Positions 13,674-23,301 of a stretch of DNA of 64,000 bases are shown in pieces (within the stretch, counting starts at the first letter, position 1; each line of letters opens with the position of its first letter). Origin of the DNA: Rhodococcus sp. (in: high G+C Gram-positive bacteria). GTDB taxonomy: Bacteria; Actinomycetota; Actinomycetes; Mycobacteriales; Mycobacteriaceae. A program made the position numbers and the translations under genes. Where the stretch lies: the NCBI RefSeq assembly GCF_023264675.1, contig NZ_JAHFVG010000005.1, positions 1-64,000 on the forward strand. The letters are read 5' to 3'. The notes beneath the pieces were generated by a model. The model did no database searches. It saw nothing but the letters and a program-made list of their open reading frames with translations, and was not told the origin of the DNA.

Positions 13674-14777
13674 CTACTTCGCGAATGCGAAGCCCTCACT
13701 CGAGCTCTGAATCTCGAGCACTGGGTAGTCGATGTATCCGGCGTCGCCTCCCCCGTACAGTGCGGTGTCGTCCAGGGCGTTGTACGGTCCGCCCGACTGA
13801 ATTCTCGCCGGTAGATCAGGGTTTGCGAGGAACAACGCCCCGAAGCACACGGCGTCGGCTACTCCTGTGGCGAGAACCCCGTCGGCGATCTCGGCCGTCA
13901 CCGGGCCGGAGTCGGCGTGCTCGTGCGGATTGAGCACGAGCGCGCCCGTCCACTGCTCTCGGAGGGCAGTGGTGACGGATCGATTGCCCGATTCCATGAC
14001 GTGGAGATACGACAGGCCCGGAAGCCGATCGACGAAGTGTCGGTACAGATCGAGCGTGTCGGACTCGGCAATGTCGTTGTAAGGATTTGCCGGTGAGATT
14101 CGCACGCCGACACGGTCGGCGCCGATCGCCGCCGCCACAGCATCGATCACCTCGGCTGGGAATCGGACCCGAGACTGGATCGAGCCGCCATACGCGTCGG
14201 TGCGGACATTGGTGTTGTCCGCGAGAAACTGGTGCAGCAGAAATCCGTTGCCTGCATGGATTTCGACACCGTCGAATCCCGCGTCGATGGCACCCTCCGC
14301 TGCCGATACGAAATCCGCTGTCGCCTGTTCGATGTCGTCCACCGAAAGCGCTGTCGGCGTGGGATAGTCCACTGGACCGGCCGGTGAGAAGCAGGTGCCT
14401 GCAGCCGCGATCGCCGAGGGAGCAACCGACATGTGCGCCGACGGGTACAGACTTGGATGCCCGATTCGGCCCGAATGCATCAACTGCGCCACGATGCGTC
14501 CGCCTGCCGCGTGCACGCCGTCGGTGACTGCTCGCCAGGAGTCGATCTGCTCCGCCGAGTGCAGGCCAGGCGTCGCGGTGAAGCCTTGGCCGACGACGCT
14601 CGGCTGAATTCCTTCGGTGACGATGAGACCGGCACTCGCACGCTGCGCATAGTAGGTCGCCATCGACGGCGTCGCACAGCCATCGATGGTTGCGCGATTA
14701 CGGGTCATCGGGGCCATGACGAGTCGATTCTTCAGCTCGATCGCGCCCAGATCGGTCGGTTCGAAGATGGTGGTCAT
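13674..14777 (-). CDS. Old yellow enzyme family alkene reductase
   Basis: 367-residue TIM-barrel FMN oxidoreductase of the NemA/OYE class, which reduces activated C=C or nitro groups with NAD(P)H. Signatures: [15 protein letters not shown] (FMN-binding N-terminus), [11 protein letters not shown], the [17 protein letters not shown] substrate/FMN motif with the His/Asn pair, and [12 protein letters not shown] near the end. It is the last gene of the NRPS operon; its ATG overlaps the psuG stop by 4 bp, so it is likely co-translated and may act as a tailoring reductase on the NRPS/PsuG product. This role is inference: OYEs are also general detoxification enzymes. Confidence 0.92.
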
Positions 14778-15736
14778 GCTGCTCCAGTCCCGTGCGTCGT
14801 GTGGGTGTTCGCTGAGGTATGACGTGCGTGAGCGGCAGCGAGAATGCCGCCCACCTCGGCGGTGCTGATCAGCACCGCCTTGTTCGCTTCCGATGTTCTG
14901 CCGCCGGTCATGTCGTCGACGGCTCGCATCAAATATTTGGTGATCGCATTTCCGCGAATCCCGTCACGTTCGGCAGACCGGAGGGCCGTGCCGATCGCGA
15001 TTTCGGCGAGTTCGCGGTCGACGGCGTCCTCGGATCGGGGCGGTGTGGTGATCAGGACACCACCCGACCCGCCTGCACTCCAATAGGTTTCGACGATTCT
15101 CGCGACGATGTTCTCGTCGTCGACGCGATGCGGACTGCGGATTCCGCTCGATTCGCAATAGAAAGCCGGAAAGTCGTCCGATCGATACGACACGACAGGC
15201 ACACAGTGCGTCTCGAGGAACTCCATCGTCAGCGGCAGATCGAGTATCGCTTTGGCACCGGCACACACGATCGCGACTTTCGACCGGGTGAACTGAATGA
15301 GATCGGACGACACATCCATCGTCTTCTCGGCGCCGCGATGCACGCCGCCGATCCCCGCCGATGTGAAGAACTTGATTCCCGCAAGTTCTGCTGCGACCAA
15401 GGACGATGCGACGGTCGTTGCGCCGGTGATGCCGAGTGCCAACGCAACCGGGAGGTCTCGACTGCTCACCTTGGGTATACCCCGAGTGGACGCATAGCGC
15501 TCGATGTCGGCCCCGGTCATCCCGATGGACAGATGTCCGTCGTCGATCCCGATCGTCGCCGGAACAGCCCCTCCGGTTCGGACTGCGCGCTCCACCTCCG
15601 CTGCCGTGCTCGCATTGTCCGGATAGGGCAGGCCGTGAGTGATGACGTTGGACTCGAGAGCGACTACCGGCGTCCCACTGTGGAGTGCTTCGGCGACCTC
15701 CTCGGTCATTCGCAGAGGAACCCTCGACGTCTTCAT
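14774..15736 (-). CDS. psuG: Pseudouridine-5'-phosphate glycosidase (PsuG/IndA type)
   Basis: 320-residue enzyme that reversibly joins ribose 5-phosphate to a pyrimidine-like base by a C-C bond. The catalytic set known from E. coli PsuG (Glu31, Asp149, Lys166) appears as Glu28 ([13 protein letters not shown]), Asp145 (DVSSDLIQF) and Lys162 ([11 protein letters not shown]), with the same 17-residue spacing between Asp and Lys, so the enzyme should be active. Homologues called IndA or MinB sit next to indigoidine-type NRPS genes and are used as C-glycosynthases in minimycin formation. Here it overlaps both the NRPS and the reductase gene by 4 bp. The HAD phosphatase that usually accompanies it is not present. 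Confidence 0.95.
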
Positions 15737-18700
15737 GCTCGCTCCTGCGCAGTGATCTGTACTCCCGTGGATTCGAGGGCCGGTACGTCGTCCAGTGCAC
15801 GGTCCGAGTGACCGACCGTTCCGCGGATGGCGGCTGCGAGTTCGCCGACACCGGCGGGTCGAAGCACCGCGTAGTGGTCCGCGGTGAGCTGGATCAGTCG
15901 CGGCGGTGCCGTCGAGTATCCCGATTGCCCCTCGACGAAGGAATAGTCGTCACCGACCGCTTTGAAGATCGTGACCGGTGACCGAAGGCGTCGATCCGCC
16001 ATCTCGCGGAAGGTGTACTCGAATTCGTACGTCTGCTCCACGACACGAACGATGTTGGTGATCAGATCTTTCCCGAGTTCGGGAAGGAGCCCGTTCACGT
16101 ACGAAACGAACGTGTCCTCGTCGACCACGGTGGCCGCGCACCTGTCGAGCTCGCGACCCGAAATCTGGCCGGTGAACACCGAGAGGAGAATGGTCAGATA
16201 GCTGCGATCGTCGTAGCTGGCGTTACGGGCGCGGTCGGCGCCGTCGGCCTTGTCGATATCGTCGACAATGGGGTTTCCCGGGCAGATCAGAAACAGCTGC
16301 TCGACTTCGTGGCCGGCCTGCTCCAGCTGCCACGCCGCCTCGAACGCAACCCTCGCACCGAACGAATATCCCCACAGCCGGTACGTTCCATGTGGCTGAA
16401 TTCGGACGATCTCGGTCACGTCGGCAGCCGCCATCTCCCCGATCGTTCGATAGGCAGTCTCCCCTGTATTGATTCCATAGGCCTGAATCCCGTACAGCGG
16501 GCGCGTCGGGCTCGCCTCGGCCGCCAACAGGCGAAGATTCATCGGATATCCGCCGAGACCGGGCCAGCAGAACACCGGCGTCGAAGTACCCATGTTGTGC
16601 AACAACGACAGTCGGGACTCGGGACCGGACGCATGCCCCGCTATTCTCGCTGCGAGATCTCGAAGCTTCGGACGCTCCAAAATCACCTGGATCGGAAGCT
16701 TCACACCGAATTCGGCATTGATCCGATTGACCATCGCCACGGCGATGAGAGAGTTTCCACCGGCGGTGAAGAACTCATCCTCGACGGACACCGAGTCGTA
16801 ATGCAAAGCGCTGCCCCATACCTCGGCCAGCCAACGTTCGGTATCCGTTGCCGGTGCCACATAAGGCGCCGACGAATCGGCGGCGAGCACCTTCTCGGAT
16901 CGACCGAGCACTCCACAGTCGACCTTCCCGTTCGCAGTGAGTGGTAGTTCGTTCATCACCAGAATTCGATTCGGGATCATGTAATCGGGAAGGAAGTTCG
17001 CGAGCTCGTCCTTGATGATCTCGGCAGGCCCCTTCATGTGGACTGCATCTTCGTTCATGCCCTCGCTCGAAAGCTGATCCGCACTCACCGCTCCCCCGAC
17101 GCAGTAGTAGGACGGTCCGGTCGGCAATCCGCACGCGGTGAGAATGTCGTCGATGCGGCGAGCGGCAGGAAGCGGGTTTCCCGATTTGGAGCTGTATCCG
17201 GAGGACATGAGTCCGATCCCGACATCGACACCACGGCGCTGCAGGCGGTGGAGCGCAAGCCCGAGTTCGATGTAGTCCATCCACGACTCCCCGGCCCGAG
17301 ACACCAGCGCAATCGAGAAGCTCGCGCGGTCGTAGACCTGCTGATTGATCGCGATCACGTGTTTGCGTTGTATCAGAGAATCGGAGACGATTTCGAAGTC
17401 CGCGCCGTCGAATCGGTAAAGACACGACGCCATACCCTCGACCGCGCCGTGCGCTTGCACGTACACATCGACGTCGAGGGCCCTCATCGAATCCTCGGCA
17501 GGGCCGATGTCGAAGCTACCCAGGTATTCGTCACCTGCAGGCAGATCGAGTCGCTGGACAAGCGTCGGATCCGGTTGACCGGGCCGGACGGTCGATCCGT
17601 ATCTGCCGAGGGCGGTTTCGAAGACTCCGAGAAGATGCCCCGCCTCGAATTCGAGCACTTCCAACACGTTGTTTCGGTATACCGGTTCGATGGCACTCCG
17701 CCGACCGACGAGGTGGATCCGACTCGCCGGCACGTCGGCACCAGAACCGACCAGCACCAACGCGTGATCGATCGGATGGTAGTAGTAGACGCCGCGTTCG
17801 AGAGTGTCGTTGCCAGGCACCTCGAGATAGATCTGATCGGCGTACAACGCTCCCGGTGAGGCGTACGCATACTTGGGAAGCATTCGCTCCCGGCTACGGA
17901 ACTGCCCGAACCACCTCATGAGCTCGCCGAGATCAGCTGCACCGAGGTCCTCGAACGACCGTGAAGAGGCTTCGGTCGACCGAGTCGACAACAGATCGAG
18001 CAGCCGGTCACGCGACACCGGCCTCTCGCCATCGAAGAACCGATACGTTTTGCGCGCGAACACTTCTCGGCGCTGCCCTACTGTCTCGTCGCGACCCGGC
18101 AGCTCGATGACGCGTCGGCCGGCGAGCTCCGAGCTGGTCCGAACCCCCGAGTCGGCGAGCTGTGCCGCCAGCTGCAGCTTGCTCGATTTCGACTGGTGGT
18201 GGCTGCCATGGTTACCCTGGTCCATCAGGGCGGCTTCCTTGGGGTTGAGTTCGACACAGGCGACGAGTGTTCGACTCCCGGTTCGCGAGTCGTCGGTGAC
18301 GATCGCTGCGGCACGTCGAACCCACGTGTGTTCCTCGATCGACAGCGCGATCTCCTCCAGCTCCACGCGGTATCCTCGGAGTTTGATCTGATTATCGGCC
18401 CGCCCCGAGAACTGAACCGAACCGTCAGCATTCCAGTATGCGAGATCTCCTGTTCGGTAGAGCTTCTCGGTCGGGACAAATGGCGAACCGATGAATCGGT
18501 CGCGCGTCTGATCCTCGCGTCCGAGATATCCGCGGGCCAGCTGAACGCCACCGATGTAAAGTTCGCCGACTTCTCCGATATCGGCGGGCGCGAGACTTTC
18601 GTCGAGAATGAAGCACTGGGTGTTGTCGACGGGTACACCGATGGGTACCGATCCAGCACCCTCACGGATCGCCTCGGGATCGACCAGAAACGCGGTGGCG

Positions 18701-19641
18701 TTGATGGTGCATTCCGTCGGTCCGTAGAGATTGACCAACGATGACCATGGCAGTTCGTCGCAGAACATCCTCGCGAGCTGTAACGAGAGTGCTTCACCCC
18801 CGGAGAACACACGAGAGAGGCTCACGCAGCTTCGAAATCTCTCGGAGTCCAGCAACGCAAGCAACAATGTGGGAACACATTGAAACGTCGTGACGCCGTG
18901 CGCGTTGATGGAATCGACGAGTGCATCGGTGTCTCGGTAGATTCCGGGCGAGCCCATCACAACTCGACTGCCGACTGCAGGGGCGAGGATTTCCCACTGT
19001 GCGGCATCGAAGCTCATCGGCGTCTTCTGCAGGACGACCGCACCGTCACCCAGGTGTCCGCAGGAGTGCATCCAGTTGATCTGGGAGACGATGCTGCGAT
19101 GTTCGATCATCACGCCCTTCGGCCGCCCGGTACTGCCCGATGTGTAGATCACATAGGCCAGATCTCCGGGACTCGGGCGAGCCGACGCAGCCGACGGCGT
19201 CCTCGGCCGAACAGTCTCGAGCGACACGACACGTGTTCCCGCAGGAACCATGTCGGCCAGGTGAGCTCGCAGATGTTCCTGAGTGACGACGACGGTAGTG
19301 CCACTGTCCTCGATCATGTAGCGCAGTCGATCGTCCGGATACTCGGGCGACAACGGTAGGTAGGCAGCGCCGGCGAACAGAATGCCCCAGGCGCCGACCA
19401 TCGTCTGTGCGGAGGGTTCGACGTACAACCCGACGCAGTCGTCGGCGCCGACACTCATGTCTCGTAGGTGTGCAGCGACGTGCTCGGCACGGTCACGTAG
19501 GTCGGAGAAGGTCAGGTTGCCGTCGGCAGCAACGACGGCGATGGAATCGGGTCGAGTCTCGGCTTGTCGTCGCAGCAGGTCCGGAAGGCTGGCGACGAGG
19601 TGGGCGGCGTGTATGCGTGCATCGAACTGTCTGGTATCCAA
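15733..19641 (-). CDS. indC: Single-module NRPS, indigoidine synthetase type (A-Ox-T-TE)
   Basis: 1302-residue NRPS with the architecture of BpsA/IndC/MinA. Adenylation domain about 20-435 with [11 protein letters not shown] at 166-176, [11 protein letters not shown] near 304 and [13 protein letters not shown] near 413; an FMN oxidase domain inserted between A8 and A10 (about 470-875, with [10 protein letters not shown] at 473 and [13 protein letters not shown] at 813); A10 Lys906 in NGKVD; carrier domain with phosphopantetheine Ser964 (GGNSL); thioesterase with Ser1093 (GYSFG), Asp1231 or 1232 and His1256. All catalytic positions are intact. Family chemistry: L-glutamine is activated, cyclised and oxidised to a 3-amino-glutarimide-type monomer, which dimerises to blue indigoidine or is diverted to minimycin. 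The start is a TTG at 19641 with AGGGG nine bases upstream; no better in-frame start is near. The last 20 residues extend beyond the known family end. A separate phosphopantetheinyl transferase would be needed and is not in the window. Confidence 0.95.
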
Positions 19642-19699
19642 CGGGAATCCCCTGTGAGTCGGAACGGCAGTAGGTGTCGAACGCAGAACTGGCGAGATT

Positions 19700-20605
19700 T
19701 CAAACGGATTGAGTCGGTTTCACATTCAATCGTGCCGCATGGCGGCGGGTTCGGATCGGTTGAGCGACGACCACAGCTGCGATGACGACGGCAGCACCGA
19801 TCAGTTGCACCGGTGAGAGTGATTGGCCGAGAACAAGATACCCCAGCAATGTCGCAGCAAGGGGGCTGGCGAACGACAGGAACGAGACCGCGAGTGCAGG
19901 TAGCTTCTCGATGCCACGAAACCATACCGCGTACGCCAGCAGTGCACCGATCACACTCAGGTAGAGGAACCCCGAGACGTTCCGTGCTGTGATGACATCC
20001 GGAAGACCTTCTCGAACCAACATGAACGGCAACAGAACTGCGCCACCCACAGTGAGCTGCCACCCGGTGAACGTCAACACTCCGACACCGTCCGGCCTAC
20101 CCCATCGCTTGGTCAACACGAGTCCGGTTGCCATGCTTGCGGCCCCCGCGAGTCCGGCGAGTACACCCACGAGATCCAGACCGGCAGTCGGCTGAAGCAC
20201 GAGTAGCCCGACACCGAGAGCGCCCATCACACAGGAGACGATGTGAATTCCGCGAATTCTTGCCCCCAGCAGTCCCACTCCGAGGAGAAGCACGATCATC
20301 GGTTGCACACTCATGACGAGTGCCGCTACACCGCCCGGTAAATGATATGCCGCAACGAACAAGAAGTAGAAGAATGCACCGATGTTCAGCACTCCAAGCG
20401 TGAGTGCACGCCACCACCAAATACCCTGCGGTAGAGCACGTCCCACAGCGACGAGAATCAGGCCGGCGGGCAGCGCGCGCACGACCGACGCCAGCAGTGG
20501 GCGATCAGGCGGCAACAGTTCGGTGGTTACGAGATAGGTGCTCCCCCACACTGCGGGCGCGAGCACGGTCAGCAGCGAATCGCGCACTGCATTGCTCGTC
20601 TTCAT
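19700..20605 (-). CDS. EamA (DMT superfamily) transporter
   Basis: 301 residues with ten hydrophobic segments in two EamA repeats; APAVWGSTYLVTTELLPPDRP is the repeat-1 signature and SPVQLIGAAVVIAAVVVAQP lies near the end of repeat 2. The ATG at 20605 overlaps the stop of the uracil phosphoribosyltransferase gene by 4 bp; an upstream extension of the frame is antisense-like and ignored. It ends 58 bp before the NRPS start. In this setting it is the likely exporter of the cluster product, parallel to the transporter MinT of minimycin producers; direction and substrate are inference. Confidence 0.93.
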   Translation of the reverse strand: MKTSNAVRDSLLTVLAPAVWGSTYLVTTELLPPDRPLLASVVRALPAGLILVAVGRALPQGIWWWRALTLGVLNIGAFFYFLFVAAYHLPGGVAALVMSVQPMIVLLLGVGLLGARIRGIHIVSCVMGALGVGLLVLQPTAGLDLVGVLAGLAGAASMATGLVLTKRWGRPDGVGVLTFTGWQLTVGGAVLLPFMLVREGLPDVITARNVSGFLYLSVIGALLAYAVWFRGIEKLPALAVSFLSFASPLAATLLGYLVLGQSLSPVQLIGAAVVIAAVVVAQPIRTRRHAARLNVKPTQSV

Positions 20606-21315
20606 CGGGCAGGCCCACCGTGCACCGTGCCGAAGAACCTGTCGCCGAAATCCCCGATACCGGGGATCATGAATGCTTGCTCGTTCAAACGCTCTTCGAC
20701 GGAGGACGTCACGATCTGGACGCGTGGACGTGCACGGCACACCGCGTCCAGACCCTGCGGTGACGCTAGGAAGTTCACGAATACGATCCGGTCCTCTCGG
20801 ACACCGGCTTCGACGAGAACGTCGATCGCGGCGAGAGCCGAGCCGCCCGTGGCAAGCATGGGTTCGAGCAGAAGAACATGACGAGACGCGATATCATCGG
20901 GGAGATGTGAGTAGTAGAGGCGGGGTAGTTTCGTGCTCTTGTCGCGTTGGACCAGGATTTTTCCGATGCTGACCCCGGGATACAGTTCGCGGAACGCCGA
21001 TTCCATGCTTTCACCCGCCCTGATCACGGGTACGGCGCAGACTCTGGACGCACACCGAAGGCCTCGGTACGTCTCACCCACGGGAGTGGTCACCTCGTGA
21101 TAGTCGAACGGAAGCAGATCGACGCCGGCTTCGAGAAGTAACCGGTTGATCCTTCCGGCGTAGTTCACGAAGTCTTCCTGGGAAGCATTCCGGTCTCGGA
21201 TGATCGTGTGCATGGCACGCAGTTGCTTGGTTTGGACGAGGAGGTGGACGTTCGCGCGATCACGGATCGGTGTCGTCAACGTCGCGGACGCCTCGCGCAG
21301 CTCAGTGAATGTCAC
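20602..21315 (-). CDS. Uracil phosphoribosyltransferase (cluster copy)
   Basis: 237-residue UPRT that makes UMP from uracil and PRPP. The PRPP loop reads EPMLATGGSALAAID, with Glu where the standard form has Asp, and the uracil site reads PGIGDFGDRFFGT, a GDFGDR form I associate with eukaryotic FUR1-like enzymes rather than the GDAGDR of usual bacterial Upp. It is about 30 residues longer than housekeeping Upp (208-209). Within the NRPS operon it corresponds to MinD, which protects minimycin producers by enlarging the UMP pool. The 12-bp gap to the upstream TrpF-like gene and the 4-bp overlap with the transporter support co-expression. Confidence 0.93.
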   Translation of the reverse strand: MTFTELREASATLTTPIRDRANVHLLVQTKQLRAMHTIIRDRNASQEDFVNYAGRINRLLLEAGVDLLPFDYHEVTTPVGETYRGLRCASRVCAVPVIRAGESMESAFRELYPGVSIGKILVQRDKSTKLPRLYYSHLPDDIASRHVLLLEPMLATGGSALAAIDVLVEAGVREDRIVFVNFLASPQGLDAVCRARPRVQIVTSSVEERLNEQAFMIPGIGDFGDRFFGTVHGGPAR

Positions 21316-21327
21316 AGACTTTGCCCT

Positions 21328-22002
21328 TCAGTCGATTTCGGCGAATGCTTCGCGAGCGCGCACCACGAATTCACGAACCTTCGCGGGATCCTTTCGGCCG
21401 TCTGCACCTTCGAGCAGCGAATGTGCGTCGACCGCAGCGGGACGTACCTGCCTGATGGCGTCGGCGACGTTGGCAGGACTGAGTCCCCCGGCCATCATGA
21501 GTGGCTTGGGCGATCGAGCAACGAGTTCAGCACTTACCGACCAGTCGTGCAGCAGCCCGGTGGCCCCTTTCGCCCCGGTACGTGGATCGAAGGTGTCGGT
21601 GATGAACATGTCGACGACATCGGCAGTTCGATCGACCTGCGCCAACAGTTCCTGGGCGTTGTCACTGCGAACGACGAGACTCTTGAGGACATAGAGCTCG
21701 GGTGCGATGTCCTTCAGGATGCGCAATTCGGTGTCCGCGACGTCGCCGTGCAGTTGCACCGAACGAACGCCGAGTTCACCGCAGAAGGCAGCAATCTCGG
21801 CGGCGTCCGTCAGATAAGAGATCAACACCCCCTGATGTGGAGCCGGGAGCCCCGCGATGGCTTTCGCAGCGTCGTGCTCGGTGATGTCGTCCTTCCCCGA
21901 GGGCAGTCGAAGCGGAAATCCGAGCCAATCGACACCGGACTCACAGAGCATCCGAGCCTCTTCGTCGTCGATGATGCCTGCGACCTGCACCAGTGCGTTC
22001 AT
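21328..22002 (-). CDS. TrpF-like (phosphoribosylanthranilate isomerase fold) protein lacking the catalytic Cys
   Basis: 224-residue (beta/alpha)8 protein aligned along its length with PRAI: GVDWLGFPLRLPSGKDDIT, SVQLHGD, FITDTFDP, LMMAGGLSPANVADAI and VRPAAVDAHS match PRAI landmarks. The N-terminal KxCG motif, whose Cys is the general base in TrpF, reads VQVAG here, so Cys is replaced by Ala8; the Asp of the DT motif is kept. The start at 22002 has a GGAGGA Shine-Dalgarno and overlaps the nitroreductase stop by 4 bp. Standard tryptophan-pathway activity is therefore doubtful; it may act on another phosphoribosyl or pentulose compound in the cluster pathway. No trp genes are nearby. Confidence 0.85.
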   Translation of the reverse strand: MNALVQVAGIIDDEEARMLCESGVDWLGFPLRLPSGKDDITEHDAAKAIAGLPAPHQGVLISYLTDAAEIAAFCGELGVRSVQLHGDVADTELRILKDIAPELYVLKSLVVRSDNAQELLAQVDRTADVVDMFITDTFDPRTGAKGATGLLHDWSVSAELVARSPKPLMMAGGLSPANVADAIRQVRPAAVDAHSLLEGADGRKDPAKVREFVVRAREAFAEID

Positions 22003-22679
22003 GCGTTCCTCCAGGAAGTGTCGGTGTTTGCAGTTCGGTAGTGCTGGTAATGCACCGAGGACGACACCGGCCGTCGACCCGGATGACGCCTCTCCTCGGC
22101 AGCGAATCCGAGCGGAAGCAGCAGTGCGACTGCGATATCGGTGCGGTCGTCGAGGCCGATCACTTTCTTGACCTCGGACTCGTCCCACCCGTTCATCGGT
22201 GAGCTGGCAAGCCCCTGCTCGGTGGCTGCGAGCATCGCGAAGCTCGCAGCGATCATGGCGTCCTTGACGGCGTACTCGCGTTCGAGGCCACGCTCGGCGA
22301 GGTCGAGCTGAAAAGCGTTGCTCGATTCTGCCGAACCCACGACGAATTGTTCCGACCATGCTTCGTTGCGACGCGCCGAGTCGAACACGTCGGTGTTGTC
22401 CCGTCGCCAGGCATCGATTTCGGCAAGGAACACCAGGACGACCGGCGCCTCTCTCGGGTGCGGCTGGCCACCGGTCGCGTCGACGAGTCCTGCCCGGATC
22501 TCCGGGTCACTGGCCACGACGATGGAACGACCCTGGTAGTTCCAGGCGGACGGCGCTTCCAGAGCAAGCTCGAGCACGCGGTCGAGACTGTGTGTCGGTA
22601 TCGGATCGGGCAGGTAGTGGCGGTGACTTCGGCGTGACCTGATGGCATCCGAAACGGAAATTCCCTCTGAAGGTCTCAT
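21999..22679 (-). CDS. Nitroreductase family FMN oxidoreductase
   Basis: 226-residue protein with the nitroreductase fold: AIRSRRSHRHYLPDPIP at the N-terminus (FMN phosphate binding Arg/Ser), EAPSAWNYQGRSIVV, and EQGLASSPMNGWDESEVKKV with LLPLGFAAEERR near the end. Members use FMN and NAD(P)H on nitro, quinone or ene substrates, or dehydrogenate biosynthetic intermediates. It is the first gene of the seven-gene NRPS operon, 16-40 bp downstream of the operator/promoter region, with ATG at 22679. Possible role: redox tailoring or detoxification of the reactive glutamine-derived monomer; inference only. Confidence 0.9.
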   Translation of the reverse strand: MRPSEGISVSDAIRSRRSHRHYLPDPIPTHSLDRVLELALEAPSAWNYQGRSIVVASDPEIRAGLVDATGGQPHPREAPVVLVFLAEIDAWRRDNTDVFDSARRNEAWSEQFVVGSAESSNAFQLDLAERGLEREYAVKDAMIAASFAMLAATEQGLASSPMNGWDESEVKKVIGLDDRTDIAVALLLPLGFAAEERRHPGRRPVSSSVHYQHYRTANTDTSWRNA

Positions 22680-22694: not shown

Positions 22695-22770
22695 ATTTCG
22701 ATGTCGAATCGTTTGACAGCGAAAGCGTAAGCCGAGTGCTACCGTCTGTCAAACAGTTCGATGTCGAAAT
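22695..22770. promoter_or_regulatory. Divergent MarR/NRPS-operon control region with paired operators
   Basis: Two 25-bp arms (22695-22719 and 22746-22770) form an inverted repeat with four mismatches, each containing the palindrome TTCGATGTCGAA (22697-22708 and 22757-22768, exactly 60 bp apart) and a TTTGACAG element facing inward. On the minus strand TTGACA (22752-22747), a 17-bp spacer and TACGCT (22729-22724) form a good promoter for the NRPS operon whose -35 lies inside an arm. The plus-strand copy of TTGACA (22713-22718) could drive marR, with a weaker -10. This is the layout expected for MarR control of both genes. Confidence 0.75.
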
Positions 22771-22800: not shown

Positions 22801-23301
22801 TTGACCGATGCAGTCGATTCGTTTCTGGCGCAGTGGCAACGAGAGCGGCCCGAGATGGAGGCATCGCCCATGGGAGTAGTCGGACGTCTGTCACGATCCT
22901 CGCGATTGGTCGAGCACGAGATCCGCGACTACTTTGCCGGAGAGGGCATGGAGTCGTGGGAGTTCGACGTATTGGCAACCCTGCGTCGTTCTGGTCCGCC
23001 GTACACCCTGACGCCGAAAGATCTCGTCGCGCGCACGATGGTCGGATCGGCCGCCATGACCAACCGGGTGGACCGTCTCGTCTCGAAGGAACTGGTGACG
23101 CGCGAGACCGACTCCGCGAACCGCCGCAGCATCTTGATCACGCTGACGGCCAAGGGCCACGAGGTGGTCGAGCGGGTGGTCGACGGCCATGTCGCCAACG
23201 CAGCGCGCCTCGTGGCGGATCTCGAGCCCACTGAGCGGGAAGAACTGGACCGGCTTCTACGAAAGCTGTTGGTCTCGCTCGGAGATACCGGCGCCGCCTG
23301 A
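22801..23301 (+). CDS. MarR family transcriptional regulator
   Basis: 166 residues with a winged helix: WEFDVLATLRRSGPPYTLTP, then MVGSAAMTNRVDRLVSKEL (recognition helix) and RETDSANRRSILITLTAKG (wing), typical of MarR. The start is a TTG at 22801 preceded by AGGAG six bases upstream. It is divergent from the NRPS operon with paired palindromes between, so it is the probable cluster regulator, likely released by a small aromatic or pyrimidine-like ligand; the ligand is unknown. It is convergent with efpA (25-bp gap). Confidence 0.93.
   Translation: MTDAVDSFLAQWQRERPEMEASPMGVVGRLSRSSRLVEHEIRDYFAGEGMESWEFDVLATLRRSGPPYTLTPKDLVARTMVGSAAMTNRVDRLVSKELVTRETDSANRRSILITLTAKGHEVVERVVDGHVANAARLVADLEPTEREELDRLLRKLLVSLGDTGAA

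Follow-up and report, generated by a model that had tools for sequence, protein, structure and literature searches.

The first 64,000 nucleotides of a Rhodococcus sp. contig (NZ_JAHFVG010000005.1; this whole stretch is called the window) carry a seven-gene operon at positions 13674-22679, in which a nonribosomal peptide synthetase (NRPS) of the indigoidine-synthetase type and a PsuG-type C-glycosynthase are accompanied by a uracil phosphoribosyltransferase (UPRT), an exporter, two flavin reductases and a protein resembling the tryptophan-pathway enzyme TrpF. The operon belongs with the PsuG/indigoidine-synthetase clusters, among which it is a new variant, and some of its enzymes are unusual. 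Its TrpF-like gene marks a branch separate from the minimycin-type clusters, and the case for this at the level of genes is strong. With regard to chemistry, the operon probably yields a metabolite in which ribose is C-linked to a 3-amino-pyridine-2,6-dione (an azaquinone), through a branch that parts from the minimycin pathway once PsuG has acted. The seven genes, all open, are as follows.

21999-22679, minus strand: NTR, a nitroreductase-family flavoprotein and the first gene of the operon (Pfam Nitroreductase, 8.9e-26)
21328-22002, minus strand: TrpF-like protein of 224 amino acids with the phosphoribosylanthranilate (PRA) isomerase fold, Ala8 in place of the catalytic Cys and Asp136 kept (Pfam PRAI, alignments, AlphaFold2)
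20602-21315, minus strand: UPRT (Pfam UPRTase, 4.4e-73; solved UPRTs are the nearest structures, 1.4e-69)
19700-20605, minus strand: putative EamA-family exporter (Pfam EamA, two stretches)
15733-19641, minus strand: NRPS, a single A-Ox-T-TE module of the indigoidine-synthetase type (Pfam AMP-binding, PP-binding and thioesterase; code DAWQFGLINK)
14774-15736, minus strand: PsuG-type C-glycosynthase (Pfam Indigoidine_A, 2.2e-106)
13674-14777, minus strand: OYE/NemA-like flavin reductase with Phe179 for the usual Tyr (Pfam Oxidored_FMN, 1.3e-72)

Overlaps of 4 bases are found in four neighbouring pairs (NTR/TrpF, UPRT/EamA, NRPS/PsuG and PsuG/OYE), while 12 bases separate TrpF from UPRT and 58 bases separate EamA from the NRPS gene. 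The EamA and TrpF start codons were picked within longer open reading frames, the EamA Met at 20605 overlapping the UPRT stop. An earlier note, made from the letters of the window, had described seven minus-strand genes with overlaps or short gaps and an intact indigoidine-synthetase-type NRPS overlapping an active-site-complete PsuG by 4 bp, and both descriptions agree with the Pfam matches, coordinates and catalytic residues. The adenylation code obtained by alignment is DAWQFGLINK, which stands for glutamine; it is the same in 33 of 35 loci in which a TrpF-like gene accompanies NRPS and PsuG (TrpF-type loci, surveyed below), the other two differing at one position. The carrier-protein serine and the thioesterase serine are both present. 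No Pfam match for the Ox domain was found in the window NRPS, and the domain was assigned from an insert aligned with relatives and from what is known of indigoidine synthetases. Full-length relatives of the NRPS occur in two congeners at 85-86% identity. The window PsuG keeps E28, K89, D141 and K162, the same Glu/Lys/Asp/Lys positions are kept in all 49 loci of the survey, and its nearest solved structures are AlnA (2.5e-77) and a PsuG. The two core enzymes, NRPS and PsuG, are intact.

The min cluster of Streptomyces hygroscopicus JCM 4712 has a glutamine-activating A-Ox-T-TE NRPS, a PsuG-type C-glycosynthase and a UPRT in common with the window, and each set includes a transporter. The two sets differ in that a HAD phosphatase, DUF4243 and a tautomerase were not found in the window, whereas the TrpF-like gene, OYE, NTR and a MarR gene are added; this comparison was made through stand-in min-type relatives (L028, L030, L033, L094, L108, L110, L111 and others) and not with the min sequences. 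The window transporter is an EamA exporter by Pfam. Neither two HAD queries (tblastn) nor DUF4243 gave a match in the window, and PF14027, the family matched by DUF4243 proteins, gave none in the 6.4-Mb genome at E <= 1. In work on oxazinomycin, a DUF4243 protein reportedly inserts the oxygen of the oxazine ring. The min genes, as given in PMC8724604, are the NRPS, the C-glycosynthase, MinC (HAD phosphatase plus DUF4243), the UPRT and the transporter; MinC is among the genes confirmed for minimycin production, its C-terminal part is assigned the oxazine-ring step, and the UPRT is given a self-resistance role. Because neither a min-type phosphatase nor a DUF4243 protein is present, the oxazine ring of minimycin would not be made here. 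The minimycin-like C-nucleoside proposed in the earlier note can be kept as a C-nucleoside-type pathway (NRPS, PsuG, UPRT and transporter) but not as minimycin in the strict sense, the parts of MinC being absent. Its further suggestion, that the end product might be another one on account of the OYE, nitroreductase and TrpF-like genes, is supported. The TrpF-like gene marks a separate branch (35 loci, against 12 with DUF4243).

These counts draw in part on a scan with the Ox domain, in which 342 stretches were confirmed; only the 80 best were retained, so that these 80 lean towards the window's type. Gene presence was scored by tblastn at fixed cut-offs in stretches of 10.8 to ~28 kb for the 49 loci that remained after seven with identical PsuG had been dropped (L037, L163, L168, L169, L175, L176, L177; L169 is from a different strain than L034). 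Among these 49 distinct NRPS+PsuG loci, 35 carry the TrpF-like gene only, 12 carry DUF4243 only, two carry neither and none carries both. Part of the loci had been chosen by TrpF or by DUF4243; in the 32 chosen by neither, the window included, the corresponding counts are 23, 7, 2 and 0 (22, 7, 2 and 0 without the window). A min-type HAD query matched all 12 DUF4243 loci, none of the 35 TrpF loci and one of the two loci with neither marker, and a second HAD query added two TrpF loci (L026 and L027). UPRT is found in 12/12 DUF4243 loci, 35/35 TrpF loci and one of the two others. Three TrpF-like loci lie outside the 49: L104 and L165, at contig ends, and L190, a damaged Agrobacterium vitis copy. 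NRPS loci without PsuG number 60, after removal of L174 (an unrelated NRPS) from 61, of which 10 had a flank of <5 kb on one side; the TrpF-like gene is present in one of the 60 (L104, cut by the contig end) and DUF4243 in two (L032 and L198). The latter two (L032 is S. clavuligerus pCLA1) combine NRPS, tautomerase and DUF4243 with no PsuG match in the stretch and could represent a third arrangement. In L112 (S. corallincola), which has neither marker, a HAD phosphatase gene is present instead.

The same separation was seen in genomes. In a draw of 392 Streptomyces genomes, the TrpF subfamily was found in 13 (E <= 2e-121; next match 1.5e-16) and DUF4243 in 6, with no genome shared, which makes the TrpF-type branch the commoner of the two in this one draw. 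The draws used for TrpF and for DUF4243 appear identical, and their assignment (G118) to Streptomyces is by inference from PsuG of G808 and G675, identical to that of L099 (S. resistomycificus) and L083 (Streptomyces sp. JJ66), respectively. Five of the six DUF4243 matches adjoin HAD, PsuG, UPRT and NRPS, and the sixth (L198) adjoins NRPS only. Among 394 Actinomycetes genomes the TrpF subfamily is present in 4 (E <= 3e-121, the window's own included), and four more genomes have weaker matches, from 4e-41. In these searches, which set out from the TrpF-like family alone, UPRT adjoins all 16 subfamily matches from genomes other than the window's own, NRPS and PsuG adjoin all but the contig-cut L165, and DUF4243 adjoins none. 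On a PsuG tree the TrpF and DUF4243 states interleave and require 4 changes, at least 3 of them forced by well-supported branches, although this is a quick tree with three long branches and many near-copies. Because of this interleaving, the two states do not appear to reflect one old split.

Gene order is conserved beyond chance. Eleven loci, comprising the window and 10 others (L026, L027, L072, L083, L099, L162, L167, L170, L172, L173), share the order NTR-TrpF-UPRT-EamA-NRPS-(tautomerase)-PsuG-OYE, with the tautomerase missing from the three Rhodococcus loci of this set. A second layout, TrpF-UPRT-EamA-tautomerase-PsuG-OYE-PRPP synthetase-NRPS (PRPP, phosphoribosyl pyrophosphate), occurs in L034, L087, L105 and L171, and a shorter one, TrpF-UPRT-NRPS-tautomerase-PsuG, in Microbispora, Glycomyces, Actinocrispum and others. 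The order on which the earlier note had staked its cluster therefore recurs in 10 further loci. Within Rhodococcus, where that note had proposed to survey co-occurrence, two congeners have the full order, but just 3 of 37 congeneric genomes carry the TrpF-like gene or operon, the window's own counted.

The TrpF-like protein has the architecture of a PRA isomerase with an altered active site. In PRA isomerase a Cys acts as the general base, which is needed for the Amadori shift, and an Asp as the general acid. All 24 aligned TrpF-like proteins from clusters have QVAG where T. maritima TrpF has KICG, replacing the Cys by Ala; QVAG is also found in further aligned members (two from A. vitis, two from Corynebacterium and two from Streptomyces), covering two phyla in all. 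Asp136 is invariant in the 24, His194 is invariant in 20 aligned proteins, and many other positions are invariant. TrpF homologues outside such clusters keep the Cys in 4/4 cases that aligned, including the second TrpF of the genome; a fifth, at L174, yielded no alignment. The AlphaFold2 model (pLDDT 92, pTM 0.89) retrieved PRA isomerases as all of its first 11 Foldseek PDB matches. Thus, the protein has the fold and the Asp acid in common with PRA isomerase TrpF (1nsj/1lbm, 1dl3, 4aaj), from which it differs by an identity of only ~31%, by Ala for the catalytic Cys in all aligned members and by the subfamily-invariant His194. A role as the sole TrpF of the genome was ruled out by a Cys-intact TrpF at G000:C105:23168-23722 (L158). 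This second TrpF is present although trpF is reported to be missing from most Actinomycetota genomes (PMC13055916).

A second branch-wide active-site loss, also unusual, is seen in the OYE. In this family a His/Asn pair binds the substrate and a Tyr donates the proton. H174 and N177 are invariant in 15/15 aligned cluster OYEs, and all 15 have Phe179 in an NGF motif where other OYEs have NGY or HGY. The Tyr is present in the two solved OYEs compared and in 4/4 OYE paralogues of the genome in which the motif was found; two more paralogues gave no motif match. In OYE1, loss of this Tyr is said to spare quinone-like acceptors and to harm enones, and for this reason the cluster OYE is proposed as an azaquinone reducer. 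NTR has 56-88% identity to six aligned cluster homologues.

Gene content, gene order, conservation, the mutual exclusion of the two markers and the residue changes are direct observations; the reactions, the regulation and the product are inferred. Taken as a pathway, the genes could work as follows. Judging from the complete active sites and from characterised homologues, the NRPS would load L-glutamine, oxidise it and release an aminopyridinedione, and PsuG would join this to ribose 5-phosphate through a C-C bond. The TrpF-derived phosphoribosyl-binding barrel, with its base (Cys) lost and its acid (Asp) kept, may then act on the 5'-phosphorylated C-nucleotide. OYE, with Phe for Tyr, and NTR are flavin reductases fit for a quinone-like substrate, and probably hold the ring reduced or reduce the product. 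EamA would export the product and UPRT would protect the uridine monophosphate (UMP) pool as MinD does, which by analogy makes it a candidate self-resistance gene; since none of the TrpF-type loci examined lacks UPRT, the cell probably forms a phosphate that resembles UMP. Since an enzyme of minimycin formation is missing and an altered tryptophan-pathway enzyme stands in the operon instead, the compound is most likely a different, undescribed one. Most likely, the pathway ends in a dark pigment similar to indochrome (an azaquinone monomer or dimer bearing C-linked ribose), in an antimetabolite that mimics uridine, or in both. The indochromes of Arthrobacter are blue pigments of the indigoidine type with C-linked ribose, and no indochrome gene cluster was found in the open-licence literature. 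The cluster UPRT is much closer to 1upf/1bd3 (1.4e-69), of the eukaryotic type, than to 1i5e (6.8e-38), a bacterial Upp.

A more specific, tentative and rather unlikely proposal concerns the TrpF-like step, in which a descendant of PRA isomerase would have become an enzyme that modifies C-nucleotides. With its acid kept, the protein could open the furanose ring of its C-nucleotide substrate and so give a quinone methide, but with the base acting at C2' lost it could not complete the Amadori shift; the intermediate could be reclosed, coupled or, in clusters with an OYE, reduced by this Tyr-less enzyme to a C-ribityl compound. If true, the step would represent a reaction type not known before and would add a C-nucleoside/pigment family beyond the DUF4243 route, partly spread by plasmids and present in two phyla.

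Several described systems overlap with the window in part. S. lavendulae pSA3239 (L034) carries TrpF, UPRT, EamA, PsuG, OYE and NRPS at 53-75% identity to those of the window, and differs in that the NRPS comes last, that a tautomerase, a PRPP synthetase and a SARP regulator are present and that NTR has no match. The auricin cluster aur1 presumably lies on this plasmid. Blue-pigment indigoidine genes have been placed inside aur1, their product being named as blue pigment alone (PMC10409956). The L034 genes appear to be these "indigoidine genes"; because they include TrpF-like, UPRT, PsuG, OYE and PRPP synthetase genes, their product may not be plain indigoidine. Corynebacterium aurimucosum pET44827 (L191) has a divergent MarR gene, TrpF-UPRT-NRPS-PsuG, EamA and the same Cys-to-Ala change in TrpF as the window; it differs by a tautomerase, by the lack of an OYE or NTR match, by two further downstream genes and by a reported black phenotype. 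The black pigment was ascribed to this pET44827 region, now seen as a TrpF-type cluster, and the same paper noted IndA and an NRPS there, together with a phosphoribosyltransferase and a homologue of PRA isomerase, the latter pair being guessed to function in activating the NRPS (PMC2830990). The showdomycin cluster has a PsuG-type C-glycosynthase and a glutamine-derived base in common with the window, and differs in using separate NRPS enzymes and a cyclase (PMC8724604, PMC13055916); a trpF gene is reported close to it (PMC13055916). No description of the TrpF-type branch was found among the papers listed from the open-licence literature, in which PMC2830990 alone mentions both indigoidine and phosphoribosylanthranilate.

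Other explanations of the operon were weighed against a C-ribosylated azaquinone pathway. One would treat UPRT and the TrpF-like protein as a tryptophan-like module that works as TrpD-TrpF do, UPRT transferring PRPP to a ring nitrogen and the TrpF-like protein isomerising the N-ribosyl product, with PsuG acting on another intermediate. In 37/37 loci the TrpF-like gene precedes UPRT in the same orientation (at a distance of <=221 bases in 35 and of ~1.2 kb in L165 and L167), and a PRPP synthetase gene is found in 16/35 TrpF-type loci, both of which agree with such a module. A precedent comes from kosinostatin, the production of which was abolished by disruption of ksnC3, a putative PRA isomerase gene (PMC13099267); PRPP is the predicted substrate of its kstC genes (PMC7918784). 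However, UPRT is equally present in clusters that lack the TrpF-like gene, namely all 12 DUF4243 loci, and has a self-resistance role there (PMC8724604). The protein has moreover lost the Cys that serves as the base in the Amadori shift, and we regard this module as unlikely.

A plain indigoidine cluster, with the NRPS making the blue pigment and the other genes being passengers or stress genes, is distinctly unlikely. It draws on the fact that the L034 set appears to be what PMC10409956 calls the indigoidine genes inside aur1, and on the 60 loci in which an NRPS of this type has no PsuG in the stretch and thus also stands alone. On the other hand, the TrpF-like gene accompanies such a lone NRPS in 1/60 loci only, the contig-cut L104, and the PsuG catalytic positions kept in 49/49 loci together with the many invariant TrpF-like positions argue that these genes are in use. 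Minimycin (oxazinomycin) itself, for which other parts of the genome would have to provide the phosphatase and the oxygenase that the operon lacks, is highly improbable. In its favour, the min set also has an NRPS, a PsuG, a UPRT and a transporter (PMC8724604), and other parts of the genome do hold homologues of HAD phosphatases. Against it, DUF4243 adjoins PsuG in separate clusters, never together with the TrpF-like gene in the 49 loci, and minimycin was rejected as the product on the lack of a DUF4243-family match in the genome.

A number of observations weigh against the azaquinone pathway as proposed, or against a clean division between branches. OYE, NTR and EamA are present in 16, 12 and 22 of the 35 TrpF-type loci, respectively, none being universal, and with such a patchy distribution their roles may be specific to sub-branches. 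The tautomerase gene, found in 32/35 TrpF-type loci, is missing in the window and its two congeners. A HAD phosphatase gene adjoins OYE in both congeners (L026:6-734, L027:5214-5930), and the window's genome has a HAD copy elsewhere (G000:C70:6351-7049) that is 55-56% identical to those of the congeners, so that dephosphorylation is possible. Two NRPS+PsuG loci, L029 (G066) and L112, have neither marker. On the PsuG tree the marker labels are clustered (the three labels need 6 changes, where shuffled labels need 13 on average), which means that the loci are not independent. The putative operator motif described below is absent in 7/12 other clusters (L090, L112, L162, L172, L173, L191, L192). 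The C. aurimucosum proteins are only 36-53% identical to those of the window, and the black pigment was assigned, in the accessible part of PMC2830990, by annotation and by comparing strains. In the open-licence literature no product, transcript or enzyme assay was found for any TrpF-type locus.

It is important to recognise new routes to C-nucleosides, which are rare and medically useful and for which few routes are known. The results mark a second branch, one with no assigned C-nucleoside product, and offer the TrpF-like gene as a one-gene marker for it as well as a possible explanation for the black pigment of C. aurimucosum.

The operon also has a candidate regulatory system, which the earlier note did not describe.

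22801-23301, plus strand: MarR-family regulator, divergent from the operon (Pfam MarR_2/MarR)
22697-22708, no strand assigned: putative MarR operator 1, TTCGATGTCGAA (motif search, relatives)
22757-22768, no strand assigned: putative MarR operator 2, TTCGATGTCGAA (motif search, relatives)

The MarR protein at the equivalent position is 87-88% identical in both Rhodococcus relatives and 41-57% identical in Streptomyces loci. Two copies of TTCGATGTCGAA lie in the intergenic region between MarR and NTR at a spacing of 60 bases, and each of the two Rhodococcus relatives has both. Across the 64 kb, TTCGANNTCGAA is matched exactly at these two sites only, with 0.24 expected and two or more in 4/100 shuffles, and the motif occurs in the matching intergenic region of 5/12 other clusters examined (L083, L099, L104, L167 and L170, all Streptomyces). 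The divergent MarR gene and the two-copy palindromic site are thus predicted to be part of the operon system, in which MarR would repress the operon through the two TTCGATGTCGAA sites. Scans for sigma-70 promoters and terminators gave no excess over shuffled sequence.

In Rhodococcus the operon occupies differing sites, and the gene set is compact and mobile. The flanks of the window operon (acyl-CoA oxidase-like, ProS, YaaA, DUF2786-like, MFS exporter, CysG and ABC-F genes) are collinear in genomes G004, G006 and G008. The operon of the window lies between its DUF2786-like and MFS exporter genes, which in these genomes are separated by <=2.8 kb. Because this leaves too little room for the operon, the copy in the window is an insertion. 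In G008 the operon is on another contig, in G023 none of the window's flanks adjoin it, and in both a HAD phosphatase gene follows it. Outside Actinomycetota, an A. vitis plasmid (L189, Pseudomonadota) has an IS3 element next to the genes TrpF-UPRT-EamA-NRPS-tautomerase-PsuG-OYE. On another plasmid of A. vitis (L190) the set is damaged, with the OYE match in two pieces and no NRPS or PsuG match above the cut-offs in the stretch examined. The closest plasmid NRPS (61%), on a Streptomyces BHT-5-2 plasmid (H1), has no other cluster gene in a 28-kb stretch. Two Corynebacterium plasmids (L191, L192) share MarR'-TrpF-UPRT-NRPS-tautomerase-PsuG-EamA; L192 is C. striatum pCs-Na-1, a plasmid from a porpoise, with the same set as L191. 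Finally, Streptomyces W1SF4 (L036), compared with L034, keeps EamA, tautomerase and NRPS between the same neighbours (abhydrolase and SARP), with TrpF, UPRT, PsuG, OYE and PRPP synthetase jointly missing, a natural loss.

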